From Clostridia bacterium (GTDB lineage: Bacteria; Bacillota; Clostridia; Oscillospirales; CAG-272): DNA of 64,000 nt. Positions 1-9,794 of this stretch are shown piece by piece; the first letter of the stretch is position 1; each line of letters opens with the position of its first letter. Made by a program: the position numbers and the translations under genes. Under the pieces are notes generated by a model that made no database searches, was not told the DNA's origin, and was given only the letters and a program-made list of their open reading frames with translations. The DNA lies in contig JAFTOG010000013.1 of assembly GCA_017451485.1 (NCBI GenBank), positions 64,527 to 128,526 on the forward strand, read 5' to 3'.

Positions 1-1246
1 GTTCATAGCAGAAATCAGTATCAATATCTGGCATACTTAATCTTTCAAGATTTAAGAACCTTTCAAATAAAAGATCGAATTTTATAGAATCTATATCGGT
101 GATAGAAAGCAGGTACGCAACAAGGCTGCCTGCACCCGATCCCCTTCCAGGTCCTACGGGAATACCGTTATTTTTTGCATAATTTATAAAATCCCAGACA
201 ATAAGAAAATAATCATCGTAACCCATTTTATTAATTACTGCCAGTTCATTTTCGGTTCGTTCTATATATAATTCCTTAGTGTGGGTATCCGTATAAATAA
301 TTTGACCTGTCTTTTCTCTGTTAGCAAGTCCTTCAAAGGCTAATTTTCTTAAAAATTCCTTAGAGGTTAATGGAGCACAAAAGCTATACTTTGGTAAATG
401 AATATTACCGAATTCAAATTTGAAATTACACTTTTCCGCTATTTTTACTGTGTTTTCGCAAGCAGCAGGATATGCGGAAAAAAGCTCAAACATTTCCTCG
501 GTAGATTTTAAGTAAAATTCATTAGTTGGAAATGCAATCTTGGAATTATTTGATACAGTAGAGTTAGTCTGAACTGACATCAAGATCAATTGAGAATAGG
601 CATCATCTTTGTTCAGATAGTGTACATCGTTTGTACATACTAAGGGAGCTCCGGTAAGTCTTGATAATTTAGCTAATTCCAAATTTACCTTTGCTTCTTC
701 CTCAATGCCGTGATTTTGCATTTCTAAATAAAAATCATCCTTACCAAATATCTTTTGCATATCAAGTATATGGCCTATGGCACTTTCAGTGTCACCTAAT
801 AAGATATTTTTTGGTATAAAACCGGAAAGACATGCCGATAATGCTATAAGCCCCTCACTGTGTTCTTTGAGTAGCTCAATATCAATTCTCGGCTTCATAT
901 AAAAACCTTCTGTATATCCGGCAGAAACAAGATAGGAAAGGTTCTTATAGCCAATTTCATTTTTACATAATAGGACAAGATGATAATAAGAAATATTATT
1001 AATCCTTGATTTTTCATATCTGCTACCGGGAGATAAATAAACTTCGCATCCAATAATGGGCTTTATTCCCTCCTTGATAGCAGCTTTATAAAATTCAATA
1101 ACGCCGAACATATTTCCATGATCGGTGATAGCTACAGCTTTTTGACCGTTTGCTTTTACTGCCTTTGGTATATCAGCAATTCTGCATGCACCGTCAAGTA
1201 AACTGTATTCACTATGCAGATGTAAATGTACAAAGTCCGACATCAT
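1..1246 (-). CDS. dnaE: DNA polymerase III alpha subunit, N-terminal part (cut by window edge)
   Basis: Replicative DNA polymerase of the C family. The visible 415 residues start with a PHP domain (HLHLH motif near residues 7-11, TDHG near 40) and run into the polymerase palm, stopping just after the catalytic PDIDTDF motif at residues 406-412. The rest lies outside the window. Two consecutive ATG codons (1246, 1243) follow a GGAGAG ribosome binding site, so the start could be either. It lies 8 bp downstream of whiA and is probably the end of the long nusB-whiA transcription unit. Because the PHP domain is at the extreme N-terminus with no exonuclease insertion, this is DnaE rather than PolC. 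Confidence 0.95.
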
Positions 1247-1254
1247 CTTCTCTC

Positions 1255-2118
1255 CTATTCCTCTTTTTTTATTTCTTCGTATATTTCTACAATCTTTTCA
1301 AGTCTGTGGAAAATACCGGATTTAGATATAACCGGATTGAATTTTTTACCAAGTTCTGTGTAATTCAACTCGGGAAATTCAAGACGCTTATATGCTGTTT
1401 CAGTTAATTGCTCGTTCAATTTAGATATTTTGTTGCTTTTAATAAGGTAGTTAATAGCGTTTATATATTTCTTAGACGCATCAAGGGATTTATTTATATT
1501 AGCATCATCACAGTTACTGATTCTGTTAGCTCTATTTCTGACATCTTTAATTATTTTACTGTTCATTACAGTAAATGTCGCATTATTCGCACCGATAACA
1601 GCAAGATAATCTTCTACCGTTTCACTGTCCTTAGTATAAATTACATACTTACCCTGTCTCTCTCTGATTTTGAATTTGAAGCTTAAATCAGAAAGCATAG
1701 AAAACAATTCGTTAGCCTTATTTTCGGAAGAAAAGGATAACTCCAAAAGATAAGATTTATTTGGATCGGTAACCATTCCACGAACAAGAAACAGTGATCT
1801 AAGAAAATGATACTCACAATCGGGACACTTAAATATATTGCTTTTATATTCTACAATTGTAAAATATCTAAAAAGGCTTGATTCTATTGAGATTTCACCA
1901 TTATTAAAGTAACATAAATGCTTTTTCTTAAATAAAATATCGCATAGCTTCAAGAAGTAATTTGCAATTTCGACATTTGTCGTTTTTATGTAATATCTGT
2001 CATTTTCCTTCTCTGCACAGAACAAAAAGCCGTACAGAATAGAAAACATACAGCACTTTTTATTTTTATATTCAAGCTGTAAAATTTCTTCCTTTACAGC
2101 ATTTGTAAATGAGCCCAT
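1255..2118 (-). CDS. whiA: DNA-binding protein WhiA
   Basis: WhiA-family protein of 287 residues, the usual length. The family has a degenerate LAGLIDADG homing-endonuclease-like N-terminal domain and a C-terminal helix-turn-helix; the C-terminal part here (about residues 200-287, with the [14 protein letters not shown] stretch) matches the HTH. In actinomycetes WhiA controls sporulation septation; in Bacillus it influences division and chromosome segregation. In many Firmicutes it sits in a yvcJ-yvcK-whiA group, but here it lies between murB (8 bp upstream) and dnaE (8 bp downstream). The start ATG follows AGGGAATAAT. Confidence 0.93.
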
Positions 2119-2126
2119 ATTATTCC

Positions 2127-3032
2127 CTATTCTATAAAAATAATTTCTTCTTCGAGTAAAATTCCGTATTTATTTTTTATATCCTTCTTTATCAAATCCA
2201 CAAGAGCTATTACATCTGAGAAGGATGCATTATTTGAATTTACAATAAAACCGGCATGTTTTTCGGACACTGTAGCTCCTCCTATTCTCTTTCCTTTAAG
2301 ACCTGCCTCATCTATTAGTTTTGAAGCAAATCCGTTTTTTGGACGCTTGAACGCACTCCCGGCACTTGGATAATCGAGGGGCTGAGATTTTTTTCTTTTG
2401 CTCAAATTTTCTTGCATTTTGTGGTATATATTGCTTTTATTACTTTTTCTTAATTTTAGTTCGGTTGATATGATGAAATAGTTTTTATTATCCATAAATA
2501 TAGAATGCTTTGCACTGTATTGATGTTCATCAAGTATAATATCGAATATATCAAAAGTCGAAATATCAAGTACTGTTGTTTTATATACAACATCTGATGC
2601 GGAAAAATTAAATGCAGAGGCATTCATATATACAAATCCACCAACACTACCGGGGATTCCATATGCAAATTCGATTCCTGAAAGACAATTATGATATGCA
2701 GACATACAGCAATCGGATATATCGGCACCGCAAAAGCAAATTATACTGTCATCGCAAATTGAGATACTGTTAAATTTTTTGGTTGATATAACAACTCCAG
2801 AATATCCGTTATCTGAGAATATAGTATTTGTCCCATTTCCTAAAAAAATATATTTTATTTTATCACTAACGAGAAATGTCACAATGTCCATTATTTCTTC
2901 AATTTTAGTAGGATATATGACAATATCGGCAGGACCGCCGATATTGAAGGAAACAAGCTCCTTTGTCATTTTATTCAATTCAAAATATATCTTCTTGCAA
3001 TCAAGATAAGCTATCAAATCATTATATTTCAT
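2127..3032 (-). CDS. murB: UDP-N-acetylenolpyruvoylglucosamine reductase
   Basis: Flavoenzyme that reduces UDP-GlcNAc-enolpyruvate to UDP-MurNAc with NADPH, the second committed step of peptidoglycan precursor synthesis in the cytoplasm. The FAD-binding PCMH domain shows GNGTNTIFS at residues 65-73 and YGIPGSVGG at 124-132. The C-terminal MurB domain shows GSAFKRP at 225-231, whose serine is the expected proton donor, and a glutamate-rich end. The 301-residue length fits the type II enzymes of Gram-positives. A strong AAGGAG precedes the ATG. The 57-bp gap after recN is the largest in this gene run. The dcw cluster at 49-59 kb has no murB, so this is probably the main copy. Confidence 0.95.
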   Translation of the reverse strand: MKYNDLIAYLDCKKIYFELNKMTKELVSFNIGGPADIVIYPTKIEEIMDIVTFLVSDKIKYIFLGNGTNTIFSDNGYSGVVISTKKFNSISICDDSIICFCGADISDCCMSAYHNCLSGIEFAYGIPGSVGGFVYMNASAFNFSASDVVYKTTVLDISTFDIFDIILDEHQYSAKHSIFMDNKNYFIISTELKLRKSNKSNIYHKMQENLSKRKKSQPLDYPSAGSAFKRPKNGFASKLIDEAGLKGKRIGGATVSEKHAGFIVNSNNASFSDVIALVDLIKKDIKNKYGILLEEEIIFIE

Positions 3033-3089
3033 ATTATACTCCTTAACTCAAGCGTAATATAAATATATGAAATGATTTTTAACTATGTG

Positions 3090-4805
3090 TTATTTGCTTT
3101 CGGTTTTTATTTTATTAGACTGTAATATAAGCTCTCTTGCTGCATCAAACTGCTTAGTTGTGAGATTTATTCCACCTATAATTCTGGCAATTTCATTCAC
3201 CCGTTCATCCTCGCTAAGAACAAACACCTTTGCTTCTGCTCTTTCGTCTATCTCTGTTTTCTTTATAAAATAGTGATTTTGTGCAAGTGCAGCAATCTGA
3301 GGTGAATGAGTAACACAAATTGTCTGTGTGGATAAGGATATCTCAAAGAGCTTTATTCCTATTCTTTGAGAGGTACTACCGGAAACTCCGGTATCTATCT
3401 CGTCGAAAATAACAGTACCTGCCCCGTTTTTATCACTCATAGCATTTTTTAAGGCAAGCATAATTCTGGAAAGCTCACCCCCAGATGCAATTCTATTCAT
3501 AGGAGCTAACTCTTCACCAACATTAGTAGCAATTAAAAATTCAACATCATCACAACCGTATTGATTAAGAATTACCTTGCCATTTGATTCATTCTTTCTA
3601 ACACAAATTTCAAAACGAACCTTAGGCATATCAAGAAATTTGAGTGTATCCATAACTAATACACTAAGCTTTTCTGCACCTTTAACTCGAATATTATGAA
3701 TGTCATTGGCTTTATTTAATGCATTAGTATATAATTTTTTGTACTGATGCTTAAGCTCATCTAATCTTACTTCTCCCTTTTCAAGGTTGTCAAGCTTGAT
3801 TTGTGCATCTTCCTTAAATTTAAGTATCTCAGCCTCGCTGCCACCGTATTTCCGTTTTAATTTCTGTAATAGTGAAAGTCTCTCTTCAATTCTTGAAAGC
3901 TGAATTTCAGGGGGTTCTTCGCCCTCAAAATCAGCATATTCCAACGCTTTTTCACCTATATCGGTTATTTCATAATTAAATTCCTTAAGCTTTTCAGAAA
4001 GCTCAGATGCCTCGGGAATAACATCTGATAGCCTACTCAATGAATCAATTGCCTTATCCAAAAGGTAAGTAGCACTTATTCCACTTTCATTTTTACAAAG
4101 CACCTTATATGCATTTGAAGCAAGCTTAACGATTTTTTCGGAGCTTCTCAGCTTTATTCTTTTTTCGGTAAGCTTTTTTTCCTCTTCGAGATCAGTTATT
4201 TTGGCAGATGAAATTTCTTTAATTTGAAATTTAAGAATATCATACATCATATCCTTCTGCTTATTTAATTCGTTCAAGGATGAAATTTCGCTTTTCAGGT
4301 CAGAAAGCTTTTTATACATCGCTTTATACTCATTAATAACATTTTCGATTTCTATATATTCATCCAGTAATCTTAAATGATTTGACTTATCCATAAAGCT
4401 ATGGTTTTCATTTTGACCGTGTATGTTTACAAGTAGCGGTGCAATTAACTTAAGCTGGGATAATGAAGCAGTTTTTGAATTAATTTTAACTGAGCTTCTT
4501 CCATCAACTGTAACAGTTCTTGAAACAGAAAATATATCTTCTCTATCATAATACAAGCCCTGCTCGTCACATACAGTATATACTTCCTCGGCAAGATTGG
4601 AAAAATAGGCACTTACTGTTGCTTTATCAGCTCCATGTCTTATCATTTCCTTCGATGCCTTATCGCCTAAAATTAATCCTATTGAATCTATAATTATTGA
4701 TTTTCCGGCACCTGTTTCGCCTGTAAGGACATTAAATCCTGCACCAAATTCAATATTGACATTTTTTGCAACGGCAACATTTTCAATATGTAATGAATCA
4801 AGCAT
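3090..4805 (-). CDS. recN: DNA repair protein RecN
   Basis: SMC-like ATPase of 571 residues that acts early in recombinational repair of double-strand breaks. Walker A is GETGAGKS at residues 29-36. A central coiled-coil region spans roughly residues 150-370. The C-terminal half carries the ABC signature SGGELSRIMLAL and Walker B with the D-loop (FDEIDTGVSG). It lies 15 bp downstream of argR, a linkage seen in many Firmicutes. Confidence 0.96.
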   Translation of the reverse strand: MLDSLHIENVAVAKNVNIEFGAGFNVLTGETGAGKSIIIDSIGLILGDKASKEMIRHGADKATVSAYFSNLAEEVYTVCDEQGLYYDREDIFSVSRTVTVDGRSSVKINSKTASLSQLKLIAPLLVNIHGQNENHSFMDKSNHLRLLDEYIEIENVINEYKAMYKKLSDLKSEISSLNELNKQKDMMYDILKFQIKEISSAKITDLEEEKKLTEKRIKLRSSEKIVKLASNAYKVLCKNESGISATYLLDKAIDSLSRLSDVIPEASELSEKLKEFNYEITDIGEKALEYADFEGEEPPEIQLSRIEERLSLLQKLKRKYGGSEAEILKFKEDAQIKLDNLEKGEVRLDELKHQYKKLYTNALNKANDIHNIRVKGAEKLSVLVMDTLKFLDMPKVRFEICVRKNESNGKVILNQYGCDDVEFLIATNVGEELAPMNRIASGGELSRIMLALKNAMSDKNGAGTVIFDEIDTGVSGSTSQRIGIKLFEISLSTQTICVTHSPQIAALAQNHYFIKKTEIDERAEAKVFVLSEDERVNEIARIIGGINLTTKQFDAARELILQSNKIKTESK

Positions 4806-5269: not shown

Positions 5270-6052
5270 CTATTCCCCGTCAGTTAAAACTGTCCTTTTT
5301 ATATTTTCAATATCTAATTCACTGCCGTTTTTAGAAAACACAGCTAAAAATTCAATATTTCCATCGCCACCTTTAATAGGAGATATCGTAAATCCTATAC
5401 ACTTAAGTCCACAAGTGTTAGCACTATCAATTACACGCAATACTCCAAAAAGACGGTTCTTTTTATTTTTTACGATACCACCCTTATCTATTTTGTCCTT
5501 ACCAACCTCAAATTGAGGCTTAATTAAGCCTATGTAATATCCGTTTTCCTTCAACAATGCTGAAGCAGGGTAAAGTATATAGGTTTGGGATATAAACGAG
5601 ACATCGGCAGTTATAATATCAGCCATTTCTCCGATATCCTCGTAGTTTAGGCTTCTTGCGTTATAGTTTTCTAATGATATTACTCTTTCATCCGTTAAAA
5701 GAGTTTCATCAAGCTGATTTGTGCCCGAATCTATAGCATATACACGCTTTGCACCGTGTAAAAGCATGCAATGTGTAAATCCACCGGTTGATGCACCTAT
5801 ATCTATGGCTGTTCTTCCGGTTATGTCAATTCTAAAAGAGTTTATAGCCTTTTCAAGCTTAAGTCCTCCTCTTGATACATATGGACAAGGGTCTGTTATT
5901 TCAACGGTATATTCTATATTACTGTCAATTTCTGCAGACGGCTTTATGATTTTTTCACCGTTTAACAGTACATACCCATCAGTTATCAGTGTTTTTGCCT
6001 TTTGTCTGCTTTTGACATACCCTTTTGTGTACAAATATATATCTGCTCTCAT
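5270..6052 (-). CDS. tlyA: TlyA-family rRNA 2'-O-methyltransferase (hemolysin A family)
   Basis: Putative S-adenosylmethionine-dependent ribose methyltransferase acting on rRNA. An N-terminal S4 RNA-binding domain (about residues 1-60) is followed by an FtsJ-like Rossmann domain with the SAM motif AIDIGASTGGFTHC near residues 88-101. The length of 260 residues is typical. In actinobacteria TlyA methylates 16S and 23S rRNA; the target here is inferred by family only. The ATG overlaps the ispA stop by one base. The ispA-tlyA-argR-recN order is common in Firmicutes. Confidence 0.93.
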   Translation of the reverse strand: MRADIYLYTKGYVKSRQKAKTLITDGYVLLNGEKIIKPSAEIDSNIEYTVEITDPCPYVSRGGLKLEKAINSFRIDITGRTAIDIGASTGGFTHCMLLHGAKRVYAIDSGTNQLDETLLTDERVISLENYNARSLNYEDIGEMADIITADVSFISQTYILYPASALLKENGYYIGLIKPQFEVGKDKIDKGGIVKNKKNRLFGVLRVIDSANTCGLKCIGFTISPIKGGDGNIEFLAVFSKNGSELDIENIKRTVLTDGE

Positions 6053-6933
6053 TACTTCTCTCTGTTTATAAGATATTTTGCAAAATCGATAAGAACTGTG
6101 TCCTCGTCACAAAATTTTATAATGGCTTCAATAGATTTATTTGTGTAGTAATCAACCTCGTTCTGTGCCTCGTCTATGGTCATATAGCTTAATGAGGTGT
6201 TTTTATTATTTTTTTCATCAGATCCTACAGGCTTACCTAATGTGTGAGTATCTGATATTCTATCAAGGATATCATCACGCAGCTGAAATGCAATTCCAAG
6301 GCTGATTGCAAAATCAGTAAGTTTATTTACAACCTCTGTATCAGGTGTATCACAGGAAGCAAAATATCCTAACAAACATGCACATTTAATTAAATTACCG
6401 GTTTTTAATGCATGCATTTGCTTCAACTCATCGTATGAATTGATATTATTGGCACTATCAAGATCTATCATCTGACCTCCTGCCATACCTGCATATCCGG
6501 CACATTCAGCAAGACATCCGACGGCTAAGCGTACACTCCTGTCACTTACATATGGGTTGTCAGATGCAACCTTAAAAGCATAAGTAAGTAGGGAGTCGCC
6601 GGCAAGCAGAGCCTGTGCTTCTCCAAACACCTTGTGATTTGTAAGTTTTCCCCGTCTGTAATCATCATTATCCATAGTAGGAAGATCGTCGTGAATTAAT
6701 GAATATGTGTGAATCATCTCAAGAGCACACGCATATGGAATGATAGGATCTATATTTTCACTTTTAGAAAATAGCTTATAAACCTCAATAGCAATAAAAG
6801 GTCTTATACGCTTACCGCCACCTAACAGACTGTATGACATAGATTTTTCTATACCATATCCGTTTATTTCCATATATTTTTTTAAGTATTGTTCAACTAT
6901 TTCGGCGTTACTTCTTATAAGATTCTCAATCAT
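6052..6933 (-). CDS. ispA: Polyprenyl (farnesyl) diphosphate synthase
   Basis: Short-chain trans-prenyltransferase condensing isopentenyl diphosphate with allylic diphosphates, feeding undecaprenyl phosphate and quinone synthesis. The first aspartate-rich motif DDLPTMDND and the second RDDILD are both intact. The longest frame begins at 6975, but the ATG at 6933 has a GAGGGTGA ribosome binding site and begins inside the end of xseB, an 8-bp overlap; that is the start chosen, giving 293 residues. The xseA-xseB-ispA order supports the FPP synthase call. Confidence 0.94.
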   Translation of the reverse strand: MIENLIRSNAEIVEQYLKKYMEINGYGIEKSMSYSLLGGGKRIRPFIAIEVYKLFSKSENIDPIIPYACALEMIHTYSLIHDDLPTMDNDDYRRGKLTNHKVFGEAQALLAGDSLLTYAFKVASDNPYVSDRSVRLAVGCLAECAGYAGMAGGQMIDLDSANNINSYDELKQMHALKTGNLIKCACLLGYFASCDTPDTEVVNKLTDFAISLGIAFQLRDDILDRISDTHTLGKPVGSDEKNNKNTSLSYMTIDEAQNEVDYYTNKSIEAIIKFCDEDTVLIDFAKYLINREK

Positions 6934-7165
6934 TCTTATCACCCTCGTAAAATTCCGATTCAATAAACTCACCATCTACATTAATAAGCTGTTTAACAGC
7001 ACCTTCTGCCTTCTCGAGCTTTTCATTACAGATTTTAACCAATTTTACGCCCTCTTCGAATAAGGAAAGCGATTGATCCAAGGAGGACTCTCCGCCTTCG
7101 AGAAGATTTACTATTTCCTCCAGCCTCTCCATTGCGTTTTCAAAGGATATTACTTTTTTAGGCAT
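6926..7165 (-). CDS. xseB: Exodeoxyribonuclease VII small subunit
   Basis: Small helical subunit of exonuclease VII, which degrades single-stranded DNA from both ends; several XseB bind each XseA. The sequence has the family signature FENAMERLEEIVNLLEGGE near the N-terminus. A start at 7165 is preferred to the longer frame at 7174: GGAAAGGGTGA lies before the ATG, which overlaps the xseA stop by 8 bp, suggesting translational coupling. The resulting 79 residues are the usual family size. Confidence 0.93.
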   Translation of the reverse strand: MPKKVISFENAMERLEEIVNLLEGGESSLDQSLSLFEEGVKLVKICNEKLEKAEGAVKQLINVDGEFIESEFYEGDKND

Positions 7166-8417
7166 TAATATCACCCTTTCCTTGTTTGTTAATTATTTCT
7201 GCTGTAATATCTCCATCTGAAATTTTTACAGTAATAATTTCGCCTTTTTTTATTTGTTCAATACTTTTAATTACATTACCGTTATTGCTAAAAACTGCTC
7301 CGTATCCCCTTGATAAAACTGCCAAAGGATTTAATGCAGTAAGCTGAGCACTTATTCTTTGAACATCTGCCCTGCATTCCCTGTTTTTTAAGTCCATAGA
7401 GGAATACAATCTATCACTTGATGATATAAGTCTCATTTTTTTCTGGTCAAACATTGCCATAGGATTTTTCAAAATCCCGGAGCTCATATATCCATTTATC
7501 AAATTTCTATAATCTGAAAGAGTAAACAAAATATTGTTTTTCATATTCGTATACATATTGCATACTTTATTTTTGAGTTCTATACAGTTGGGTGTAACAA
7601 GCTCTGCACCGTGAGATGGCGTTGCTGCCCTGACATCTGCCACGAAATCACATATAGTAAAATCAATCTCGTGCCCTACAGCAGATACGACTGGAATATG
7701 TGAGTTATATATTGCTCTTGCAAGACCCTCATCATTAAATCCCCATAAATCTTCTATTGAGCCTCCTCCTCTACCAATAATAATTACATCAACAGAATCA
7801 AGCAAATTAAAATGCTCAATAGCTTGTGTAAGCTCGTATGATGCATCCTTACCTTGTACAGCCGAGGGGTAAAGCAGTATATCTATAAAAGGGCACCGGT
7901 TTTTAGCTACCTTAATTATATCTCTTACAGCTGCACCTGTCGGAGATGTAATAACGCCTATTTTTTTAGGGAATTTTGGCAAAGGCTTTTTATGAGATTC
8001 ATCAAACAATCCCTCCTTCATAAGCCTTTCCTTTAATTGCTCAAAAGCAAGATATAAAGACCCGATACCATCCGGTTGCATAGAATCAACATAAAGCTGA
8101 TATGATCCTGCTTTTTCATAAACTCCGACTCTTGCGTGGACAAGCACCTTCATCCCGTTTTCCACTCTAAAATTCACTCTTGATGCATAGGAACGAAACA
8201 TAACAGCTCTTATCTCACTATTTTCATCCTTAAGAGTGAAATACATATGACCCACTGTATGATGCTTAAAATTAGATATTTCAGCCGAAATATAAAGATC
8301 CTGAAGCTGTATTTCTTCTTCAATAAGAAGCTTTATATATTCATTTACTTGTGATACAGTTTTTGAAACCGGCAAAAGCTCTCTGCCGTTATCATCAAAT
8401 CTATATGAAGCCCCCAT
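7158..8417 (-). CDS. xseA: Exodeoxyribonuclease VII large subunit
   Basis: Catalytic subunit of exonuclease VII. The N-terminal OB-fold (about residues 15-110) binds single-stranded DNA. The central catalytic domain includes GVITSPTGAAVRDI and the GRGGGSIEDLWGFNDE motif. Coiled-coil segments that carry XseB follow, and a short beta domain ends with LSRGYG. It has 419 residues, a typical length, with AGGAGGG before the ATG. It follows the TsaD paralogue by 20 bp and overlaps xseB. Confidence 0.95.
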   Translation of the reverse strand: MGASYRFDDNGRELLPVSKTVSQVNEYIKLLIEEEIQLQDLYISAEISNFKHHTVGHMYFTLKDENSEIRAVMFRSYASRVNFRVENGMKVLVHARVGVYEKAGSYQLYVDSMQPDGIGSLYLAFEQLKERLMKEGLFDESHKKPLPKFPKKIGVITSPTGAAVRDIIKVAKNRCPFIDILLYPSAVQGKDASYELTQAIEHFNLLDSVDVIIIGRGGGSIEDLWGFNDEGLARAIYNSHIPVVSAVGHEIDFTICDFVADVRAATPSHGAELVTPNCIELKNKVCNMYTNMKNNILFTLSDYRNLINGYMSSGILKNPMAMFDQKKMRLISSSDRLYSSMDLKNRECRADVQRISAQLTALNPLAVLSRGYGAVFSNNGNVIKSIEQIKKGEIITVKISDGDITAEIINKQGKGDINA

Positions 8418-8437: not shown

Positions 8438-9388
8438 TTATTTAGCATCGAAATATTTTTCCATTGTCAAAAGTGCTGTTCCGGATGCATTATCAGAGCT
8501 GAATTGAGGCTCTGCAAAATAGACATCGGAAAATTTATTATTCAATCTGTTTTTAATTATAGAGTTGCTAAGAACTCCTCCACCATAGACAATCTTTTGT
8601 GTGCTATATTCTTTTCTGATATTCGATGTAATTTTTTCCAGGACCTTGCCCAAAAAGTCAAATACAAAAGCACAAGTTAATTCTTTATCCATGGTGCTTT
8701 CATAGAGCTTGATCGCAAGATTTTCCAATCCAGATAAATTGCACGAGAAATCCTTAACACTAATGTTAGCCTGGGGAATTTTCTTTGTATTATTTTTCGC
8801 ATACGATTCCATTTCCTTTCCACATGGGAAATCCATACCCATGTATACACCAATTCTATCTATTGCTTGTCCGGCATGTAGATCATTACTTCCACCGACA
8901 ATATCAATTCCGTAATAGCTTCCATTGGGTGTAACCTTCACTACTTCAGTTGTACCACCCGAAACATGAAATGCTATAAAATCTTCATTTTCAATAACGA
9001 CACCACTTGAATATACTGCAGAACGAATATGACCGGCTTGATGAGAAAAATGAAAAATTGGTATATTATTCAAAGCAGCCACCATTTTTGCAACTGACTC
9101 TCCAACAAGAAAGCATGGCATATATGATCCTTCCACATCTCTTGGAAACGCCGAGTATCCTATTGCTACAATCTCATAGTCCTTAAGATTATCTCGAATC
9201 AGATCAGAAATTTTTTGCAAATTTTTTATATGGGCAAAAACAGCATCACTTTGTCTTAATCCCCGTTCTCCATTTTTTACGGGTAATAGCATTTTGAAAT
9301 TATGTAAAATATTCCCTTCATAATCGCATATGGCTACTGAAGTGGTATAATTACTTGTATCTACTCCAACAAAAACCTTGTTAGCCAT
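8438..9388 (-). CDS. TsaD/Kae1-family paralogue (peptidase M22-like), function unknown
   Basis: ASKHA-fold protein of 316 residues related to TsaD/Kae1, the threonylcarbamoyl-adenosine tRNA modification ATPase. It keeps the metal-binding HxxxH (HQAGH, residues 116-120), a GGGVLSN motif near 269-275 and an SDN near 298-300. Other hallmark motifs are altered: SGGTTEVV at 143-150 where TsaD has SGGHT, and GGSNDLHAGQAIDRIG at 155-170 where TsaD has the DDA-GEAFDK motif. It is therefore probably not the main TsaD. It starts inside the nusB stop region; the ATG at 9388 is preferred over a TTG one codon earlier. Position between nusB and xseA recurs in clostridial genomes as far as I recall. Function is not inferred. 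Confidence 0.75.
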   Translation of the reverse strand: MANKVFVGVDTSNYTTSVAICDYEGNILHNFKMLLPVKNGERGLRQSDAVFAHIKNLQKISDLIRDNLKDYEIVAIGYSAFPRDVEGSYMPCFLVGESVAKMVAALNNIPIFHFSHQAGHIRSAVYSSGVVIENEDFIAFHVSGGTTEVVKVTPNGSYYGIDIVGGSNDLHAGQAIDRIGVYMGMDFPCGKEMESYAKNNTKKIPQANISVKDFSCNLSGLENLAIKLYESTMDKELTCAFVFDFLGKVLEKITSNIRKEYSTQKIVYGGGVLSNSIIKNRLNNKFSDVYFAEPQFSSDNASGTALLTMEKYFDAK

Positions 9389-9794
9389 CAATCAAACCAC
9401 TTTTTGCAATTTTATTTAAAACACCGTTAATATAGCCCGGTGCACCTTCCTCGCAGTACTGTTTGGCAAGCTCTACTGCTTCATTTATAGAAATAGCAGG
9501 AGGTAGCTTTACATATAGCATTTCATAAACACTTAACCTTAAAATAGCTATAGTAGTTTTGGAAAGACGATTTAACTTCCAGTCCTGAAGGTATTTTTCT
9601 ATTATTTCGTCTATCGCTGATACATTTTCACATACTGATAAAAAGTTATTCTTGACGCTTTCCTCTTCGTCATCCTCACAGCAGAAATTATCATATGCAG
9701 TATTAAAATAGTCTAATGCTGTTTCTTCCTTGCTGAAGCTATATCCAAACAAAAGATTAAATGTGTTTTTTCTGATTTTTCTTTTTCCTAACAT
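9381..9794 (-). CDS. nusB: Transcription antitermination factor NusB
   Basis: All-helical RNA-binding protein of 137 residues that joins NusE (S10) at boxA of rRNA leaders to promote antitermination. The C-terminal signature is clear: RLSKTTIAILRLSVYEM, then INEAVELAKQY and GYINGVLNKIA. An acidic insertion (CCEDDEEE near residue 40) is a local oddity. It is the first gene of the long run to dnaE, with a near-consensus promoter about 40-70 bp upstream, and ends overlapping the TsaD paralogue by 8 bp. Confidence 0.94.
   Translation of the reverse strand: MLGKRKIRKNTFNLLFGYSFSKEETALDYFNTAYDNFCCEDDEEESVKNNFLSVCENVSAIDEIIEKYLQDWKLNRLSKTTIAILRLSVYEMLYVKLPPAISINEAVELAKQYCEEGAPGYINGVLNKIAKSGLIDG

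Follow-up and report, generated by a model that had tools for sequence, protein, structure and literature searches.

Gene organization at the nusB locus

The window, by which we mean the whole 64,000-nucleotide stretch of DNA that was analysed, carries on its minus strand (8438..9388) a coding sequence that starts at an ATG at 9388, ends with a stop codon at 8440-8438 and specifies a protein of 316 amino acids; a TTG at 9391 would add one residue. The protein is TsaD/Kae1-like and encoded behind nusB, and it is given here the working name KAEP. Residue numbers follow the 317-amino-acid sequence P0001 that begins at the TTG, such that its residue 2 is the ATG methionine. On the plus strand of 8438-9388, frame 1 is interrupted by stops and there are just short open reading frames of 109 and 68 amino acids. 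The nusB gene (9381..9794, minus strand) lies directly upstream, and the KAEP ATG at 9388 overlaps its stop codon by 8 nt (ATGGCTAA). On the other side, xseA (exodeoxyribonuclease VII large subunit; 7158..8417, minus strand) starts 20 nt past the KAEP stop, and the operon context continues on the same strand with xseB (6926..7174) and ispA (6052..6975; name recognised by eye). Two minus-strand genes beyond recN, at 1255-3032, look by eye like whiA and murB, and the spo genes that neighbour recN in Bacillus were not seen in positions 1-3100 of the window.

How constant is this arrangement? A total of 86 KAEP loci were compared, which represent 85 places (L154 is the same place as L040) and are best-scoring or hand-picked loci rather than a random sample. 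Upstream sequence is available for 84 of them (83 places), and in all 84 nusB lies directly upstream on the same strand; with start codons chosen by us, the two genes overlap in 58 of these loci and are at most 20 nt apart in 77. The first recognised gene downstream of KAEP is xseA in 52 of the 86 loci, folD in 14 and nfnA in 10, and the remaining 10 show another gene, a larger gap or the end of the contig. The sole constant neighbour of KAEP is therefore nusB, beyond which no partner was found, the downstream gene being variable. Inspection of nusB in 20 KAEP-less genomes reveals that it is followed directly by xseA in 16, by folD in one, by nfnA in one and by an unidentified frame in two. 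Because nusB leads straight to xseA in most of these genomes, KAEP is gained or lost as a single gene behind nusB, and its losses are clean. The tight packing behind nusB is not specific to KAEP, because xseA is equally close to nusB where KAEP is absent. No nusB-KAEP fusion was found in the 84 loci that carry both genes.

Several features of the downstream genes were recorded in passing. An NfnA/NfnB-like pair stands directly behind KAEP in several families (L042, L043, L045, L047, L048, L051, L055, L109 and L116) and directly behind nusB in the KAEP-less genome G199 (L142); its domains are DHODB_Fe-S_bind/NAD_binding_1 and Fer4_20/Pyr_redox_2, a combination for which NfnA/NfnB is presumably the name. 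At locus L044 (1243-5716) the genes behind KAEP resemble, by eye, subunits of an electron-bifurcating hydrogenase. Replacement of FolD by KAEP was considered and rejected, since folD is present elsewhere in the same genome.

Distribution of KAEP

With profile A1 at E <= 1e-40, 195 of the 398 phylum genomes sampled gave a KAEP match. Within the order, a strong match was read by eye in about 137 of 197 genomes, and 60 of the 197 were taken as KAEP-less by eye, with G081 and several incomplete genomes being doubtful. A contig scan with one protein as query returned two relatives (94% and 61%), and the KAEP at locus L004 shares 94% identity with that of the window. Six phylum matches (G562, G198, G506, G493, G404 and G432) are marked as containing a single stop within the aligned region; of these, G198 was inspected and has a full KAEP frame of 318 amino acids.

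In Sedimentibacter sp. MB31-C6 and Acetoanaerobium noterae, KAEP likewise lies between nusB and xseA; RefSeq labels the Sedimentibacter protein a 'hypothetical protein', and the A. noterae record has no annotated feature at the KAEP position. The 2.6-Mb record of A. noterae that is labelled a plasmid looks chromosomal, and a 13,652-bp Sedimentibacter 'plasmid' (NZ_CP142397.1, L155) that carries Asp23, nusB, KAEP, xseA and xseB may be a misassembled piece of chromosome. No KAEP relatives were found in viral contigs. Four records titled 'UNVERIFIED: Bacteriophage sp.' (MT835629.1, MT837784.1, MT835679.1 and MT838889.1; L157-L160) carry KAEP in the order nusB-KAEP-xseA, three of them with xseB-ispA too, and look like fragments of bacterial chromosomes, not phage. 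Among the papers listed by searches of open-licence PubMed Central, there was no description that we recognised as the KAEP gene; gcp CD0152 of C. difficile (PMC3510511) is taken to be TsaD, judged from its name.

A link with sporulation was also considered and rejected. Across the 197 genomes of the order, KAEP was compared with SpoIVA (TIGR02836): 123 genomes have both, 14 have KAEP alone, 54 have SpoIVA alone and 6 have neither (Fisher p = 1), where 20 of the 23 SpoIVA-less genomes were listed and the other three are counted as having SpoIVA.

Relationship to TsaD and Kae1

KAEP scores 71.7 bits against PF00814 (cut-off 24.8), and the AlphaFold2 prediction on A1 (mean pLDDT 94, pTM 0.90) matches human OSGEP, archaeal Kae1 and the TsaDs of E. 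coli, Salmonella and A. aeolicus best among PDB entries, at Z 33-34.5 and rmsd 2.0-2.5 over 290-303 residues. For this reason, the likeness to Kae1/TsaD is far beyond chance. Further fold matches are T. maritima TsaD, Qri7 and TsaN at Z 26-30, followed by HypF, GdmN and TobZ at Z 17-22, about the level of the acyl-CoA dehydratase activators (20-21). KAEP is thus predicted to have the full two-lobed Kae1/TsaD ASKHA fold; its residues were matched to TsaD/Kae1 sites by sequence alignment, not on model coordinates. The proposal of the sequence-only reading, that a TsaD/Kae1 paralogue lies between nusB and xseA, is borne out by the minus-strand frame, the PF00814 match and the fold.

The more specific models do not claim the protein. 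P0001 scores 106.7 bits with TIGR03723 (TsaD; cut-off 296.1) and 120.1 bits with the wider TsaD/Kae1 model TIGR00329 (cut-off 207.8), and no NCBIfam model exceeds its cut-off on it. A quick maximum-likelihood tree was made of 55 KAEPs, which represent 54 places (L011 and L102 are the same KAEP), and 38 TsaDs, comprising 36 from the phylum (L085 and L086 being identical) and those of S. Typhimurium and T. maritima. A single branch, with SH-aLRT support of 100, separates the KAEPs from the TsaDs. When M. jannaschii Kae1 is included there are three lineages, and the program warns of long branches meeting, which bears on the order among them. Mean identities are 32% for Kae1-TsaD, 24% for Kae1-KAEP and 25% for TsaD-KAEP (Kae1 being that of M. 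jannaschii). With a profile built from 18 KAEPs from across the phylum, the scores are 160.5 bits for T. maritima TsaD, 158.8 for M. jannaschii Kae1 and 145-146 for E. coli TsaD. KAEP is no recent copy of the local TsaD. Its branches are longer than those of TsaD, meaning faster evolution, which can also be compatible with relaxed constraint. Among 31 aligned KAEPs there are 51 invariant columns, and in the 55 KAEPs 49 positions are conserved at 95% or more.

Which t6A genes accompany KAEP? A PF00814 search of the 2.01-Mb assembly gives three genes, TsaD, TsaB and KAEP. The TsaD, on contig C38, is canonical (332 amino acids, with ESSCDET, SGGHT and DDAAGECFDK); TsaB (L002) is a separate gene on contig C30 and adjoins TsaE, recognised by eye; and the single YrdC-domain match found with PF01300 is Sua5. 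Because TsaD, TsaB and TsaE, the proteins whose genes the sequence-only reading had proposed to look for, are all encoded in the same genome together with Sua5, KAEP is a true extra paralogue and not the sole TsaD-like gene. TsaD exceeds the TIGR03723 cut-off in 60 of 61 phylum genomes, and several genomes without KAEP keep TsaD, which suggests that KAEP would be dispensable for t6A. Replacement of TsaD by KAEP was first suspected in G232, a 98% complete genome with no TIGR03723 match at E <= 1e-60, and was ruled out when PF00814 revealed a partial TsaD, a 172-amino-acid frame cut by the end of its contig.

Across the 197 genomes of the order, PF01300 has one match in 180, two in 14 and none in three, and no dedicated YrdC partner for KAEP was found among them. 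Two of the three genomes with no match (G057 and G141) carry KAEP, and missing contigs may explain the absence of a match there. Sua5/YrdC frames of ~540-560 amino acids occur in G624, G097, G126, G598, G150, G072 and others, as against ~350 in most of those listed, and their length suggests a fusion or a long extra domain.

Active-site residues

Residues were first compared in the 55 KAEPs and then in a second set of 37 further KAEPs, which includes the lowest-scoring phylum matches, was read position by position and was examined after a DTSxYTT pattern failed in four of six extra loci. All segments named below lie on the minus strand and were placed by alignment. Two metal-ligand histidines are in HQAGH (residues 117-121; 9029..9043), and the third metal ligand, D300, is in SSDNASG (residues 298-304; 8480..8500). 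Where readable in both sets, H117 is present in 91/91, H121 in 92/92 and D300 in 89/89; the second set alone gives 36/36, 37/37 and 34/34 (E. coli H111, H115 and D300). In E. coli numbers, positions invariant in the 55 KAEPs as in TsaD/Kae1 are H111, H115, D300, S136-G137-G138, D159, G163, D167, P178, G180, S212-G213, GGV and N301. The GGV belongs to GGVLSN (residues 271-276; 8564..8581; GGGVLSN at 270-276); in the first set GGV is complete in 55/55 and N276 present in 47/55, and in the second set 34/35 have the second Gly and the Val. Thus HxxxH (H117-QAG-H121), GGGVxxN and SGGTTEVV (residues 144-151), as read originally from the sequence, are all present, and NDLHAGQAIDR (169-179) does stand where a canonical DDA-GEAFDK would be expected.

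Around this core the residues are fixed but different. Six positions common to at least 37 of 38 TsaDs and to M. jannaschii Kae1 are changed in all 55 KAEPs of the first set, namely E7>D, P44>Q, G83>S, L84>Y, L88>F and M304>G (E. coli numbers). The second set repeats E7>D (35/35), L84>Y (36/36), L88>F (36/36) and M304>G (34/34); position 83 is Ser in 34/36 and Ala in 2/36 (S89 of KAEP in 89/91 overall), and position 44 is Gln in 32/35 with Pro kept in 3/35 (Q47 of KAEP in 87/90 overall). Five of the six TsaD/Kae1-identical positions are therefore replaced in every KAEP read there (89-91 proteins).

DTSNYTTS (residues 11-18; 9338..9361) replaces ETSCDET of TsaD, with D11 and Y15 in 90/90 and T16 in 55/55 of the first and 27/35 of the second set. 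RQSDAVFAH (46-54; 9230..9256) replaces VPEIASRxH, with H54 in 55/55, and PRDVEGSYMPCF (83-94; 9110..9145) replaces the GPGL loop common to TsaD and Kae1, with Y90, P92 and F94 in 91/91. HVSGGTT (142-148; 8948..8968) keeps SGG and has Thr for His139 of TsaD; H142, SGG and this Thr are each found in 92/92. DLHAGQAIDR (170-179; 8855..8884) replaces DDAAGEAFDK, with D170, G174, Q175, D178 and R179 in 91/91, and G304, for the Met of TsaD and Kae1, is found in 89/89. Relative to TsaD alone, D11>Y (90/90), H139>T (92/92) and E164>Q, K168>R and Y177>F (91/91 each) hold throughout, R49>F holds in 53/55 and 32/35, and E12>T in 55/55 but 27/35, with no Glu at position 12 in 90 KAEPs. C10 of TsaD is kept in 6/55 first-set and 9/35 second-set KAEPs. 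Among KAEPs there are exceptions to Thr at 12, to Gln at 44 and to Ser at 83, and positions 10 and 44 are not diagnostic, because Pro persists at 44 in 3/35 second-set KAEPs and Cys stands at 10 in nine. Near the metal site, H142 is a His without exception; TsaD mostly shows Val at this position, and M. jannaschii Kae1 shows Tyr, which we take to be a metal ligand in Kae1.

Do these changes argue against t6A? Kae1 makes t6A, and the M. jannaschii protein reads SGGNT for SGGHT and DIAVGNCLDQ for DDA-GEAFDK, and is without C10 and E12 of TsaD (LEGTAEKTG). Because Kae1 still makes t6A without C10 and E12, the active-site change of KAEP would not in itself exclude that reaction. The departures from SGGHT and GEAFDK had been read as a sign against t6A, and that argument falls, M. 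jannaschii Kae1 differing there too. The broader suggestion of a different substrate keeps its footing in the presence of a second Kae1-type protein with a changed site, but the two motifs prove little alone; better evidence for a non-t6A role is provided by the five positions identical in TsaD/Kae1 and never so in KAEPs, together with the unconserved TsaB-contact helix. The description of the motifs as altered ATPase motifs is right in that their surroundings are changed and strongly conserved, but 'ATPase' is loose, as in TsaD the site is considered to accommodate the intermediate TC-AMP (PMC11648230). The E12A mutation in E. coli TsaD abolishes t6A (PMC4330362), C10A costs ~60% in A. aeolicus TsaD (PMC11648230, which describes the role of the ETSCD motif), the cleft mutation D43A inactivates Qri7 (PMC3695523) and mutation of the metal motif kills t6A (PMC11648230).

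The TsaB-contact helix

The helix of TsaD that contacts TsaB (E. coli 92-104; the region of R/K96, S97 and F100) is variable in the 55 KAEPs, and K/R96 is present in 38/38 TsaDs. This variability seems to indicate that KAEP is independent of TsaB, or that a partner varies along with it. Qri7 is a homodimer and works without TsaB, and a co-varying dimer face could pass for a variable helix. By an alignment made by eye, E. coli TsaD 92-104 probably corresponds to the Qri7 dimer residues K130-A135 (PMC3695523). E. coli TsaD requires S97 and F100 to bind TsaB (PMC4330362), and t6A is lost in K130A and V134R, two mutants of the Qri7 dimer (PMC3695523). The median pI is 6.8 for KAEP and 5.8 for TsaD, and the predicted charge gives no clear sign on whether KAEP would bind RNA.

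Proposed function of KAEP

We hypothesize that KAEP forms a third Kae1/TsaD superfamily lineage, next to bacterial TsaD and archaeal-eukaryotic Kae1, and is a separate metal- and adenylate-dependent (threonyl)carbamoyl-type transferase that would act on an acceptor other than A37 and without TsaB, a reading to which we give a probability of roughly 0.45. A more specific version, to be held slightly more tentatively, is that KAEP may be a (threonyl)carbamoyl-adenylate transferase not described before, which would stand alone and have an acceptor of its own; this could be a metabolite, a nucleotide, an RNA site or a protein, possibly tied to NusB. In either version we infer catalysis, the transfer chemistry, the donor and the non-A37 acceptor. 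Catalysis is suggested because the metal motif is retained and its mutation kills t6A in the system described in PMC11648230, and a different reaction is argued for by surroundings of the active site that are fixed but different. The protein would bind a divalent metal via H117, H121, D300 and perhaps H142, hold an adenylate on the conserved SGG/GGV core, and pass on a carbamoyl or threonylcarbamoyl group, the acceptor being something other than tRNA A37; TsaB would not take part, and the protein would work singly or as a homodimer. As donor, the simplest candidate is threonylcarbamoyl-AMP made by Sua5 and shared with TsaD, because Sua5 is the only YrdC-domain protein found in the genome; the KAEP-bearing genomes G057 and G141, which have no YrdC match, do not help this idea of a shared donor. 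A precedent for a TsaD-type enzyme with another acceptor is provided by TsaN, the TsaD domain of which is reported to modify ATP and ADP (PMC11648230).

An alternative hypothesis is that KAEP is an auxiliary t6A-type isoenzyme that modifies A37 or a related adenosine, serves a subset of tRNAs or uses a different amino acid. Its fold and metal site are the same as in TsaD/Kae1, archaeal Kae1 makes t6A with a very different active-site motif, there is usually one shared Sua5 per genome, and TsaC reportedly takes hydroxynorvaline and serine as substrates (PMC11648230). However, at five positions common to TsaD and Kae1 none of the KAEPs read there has the common residue, the helix with S97 and F100 that binds TsaB in E. 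coli (PMC4330362) is unconserved, t6A is lost in Qri7 K130A and V134R (PMC3695523), and several KAEP-less genomes keep TsaD, all of which makes the isoenzyme unlikely.

Could KAEP instead be a nucleotide-binding regulator that transfers no group, for example an ATP or metal sensor that works with or on NusB in rRNA antitermination? The association with nusB, the one constant neighbour in 84/84 loci with overlap in 58/84 and a varying downstream side, speaks for such a regulator, but xseA is just as close to nusB in KAEP-less genomes, so the coupling may be ordinary operon packing. Given further that no nusB-KAEP fusion occurs in 84 loci, that the TsaB-type partner face is unconserved and that an invariant metal site is unusual for a pure regulator, we regard this role as rather improbable. 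Poorer prospects still attach to some other ASKHA enzyme, such as a kinase, an acyl-adenylate hydrolase or a metallopeptidase ('M22 glycoprotease'): the ASKHA core is common to these proteins and KAEP has weak matches to ROK glucokinase and pantothenate kinase models, but the kinase-model matches are far below cut-off and those to Kae1/TsaD are much stronger in both sequence and fold. A decaying or non-functional TsaD duplicate, which loss of KAEP in many genomes, its faster evolution than TsaD and the six matches with one stop in the matched stretch (G198, the one inspected, being whole at 318 amino acids) might suggest, is already disfavoured and very improbable given 51 invariant columns in 31 KAEPs, 49 positions conserved at 95% or more in 55, and the same active-site residues, bar the exceptions given above, in 37 further KAEPs.

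Kae1/TsaD proteins are, to our knowledge, among the few universal proteins, and related sequences readily end up labelled as t6A enzymes or as 'glycoprotease'. A strongly conserved third lineage by nusB in 195 of 398 genomes probably marks an uncharacterised modification reaction, and neither annotation nor studies of essentiality should count KAEP as a second enzyme for t6A. If the transferase hypothesis is true, the Kae1 active site would have one more use in KAEP, which about half of the phylum genomes sampled carry and others have cleanly lost.

Comparison with known systems

Bacterial TsaD (YgjD/Gcp, TIGR03723) shares with KAEP its fold, at Z 33-34 for the E. coli, Salmonella and A. aeolicus proteins and 26-30 for that of T. 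maritima, and the residues H111/H115/D300, SGG, D159, G163, D167 and GGV are kept. In contrast, identity is ~25%, ETSCDET, GPGL, SGGHT, GEAFDK and Met304 are replaced in KAEP, and the TsaB-contact helix is conserved in TsaD and unconserved in KAEP. Kae1/OSGEP (TIGR03722) is like KAEP in fold (human OSGEP, Z 34.5) and in the residue two before the SGG serine, which is His in KAEP and Tyr in Kae1, whereas M. jannaschii Kae1 is 24% identical and differs at the equivalents of E7, G83-L84, L88 and M304, and mostly at P44. TsaB has a truncated C-lobe that is described as not supporting nucleotide and metal binding (PMC9654439); KAEP, unlike it, has a full-length predicted fold with the metal ligands. 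The carbamoyltransferases HypF, TobZ and GdmN are distantly similar in their Kae1-like fold (Z 17-22), but KAEP is a single domain of 316 amino acids with neither a YrdC nor an acylphosphatase module, and HypF_C_2 (PF22521) reaches 24.9 bits on it, under the cut-off of 27. Finally, TsaN, the TsaD-TsaC-Sua5-TcdA protein of P. salinus (PDB 8ide), resembles KAEP in its TsaD-type domain (Z 27.1) and differs in being a fusion, where KAEP is a single domain.
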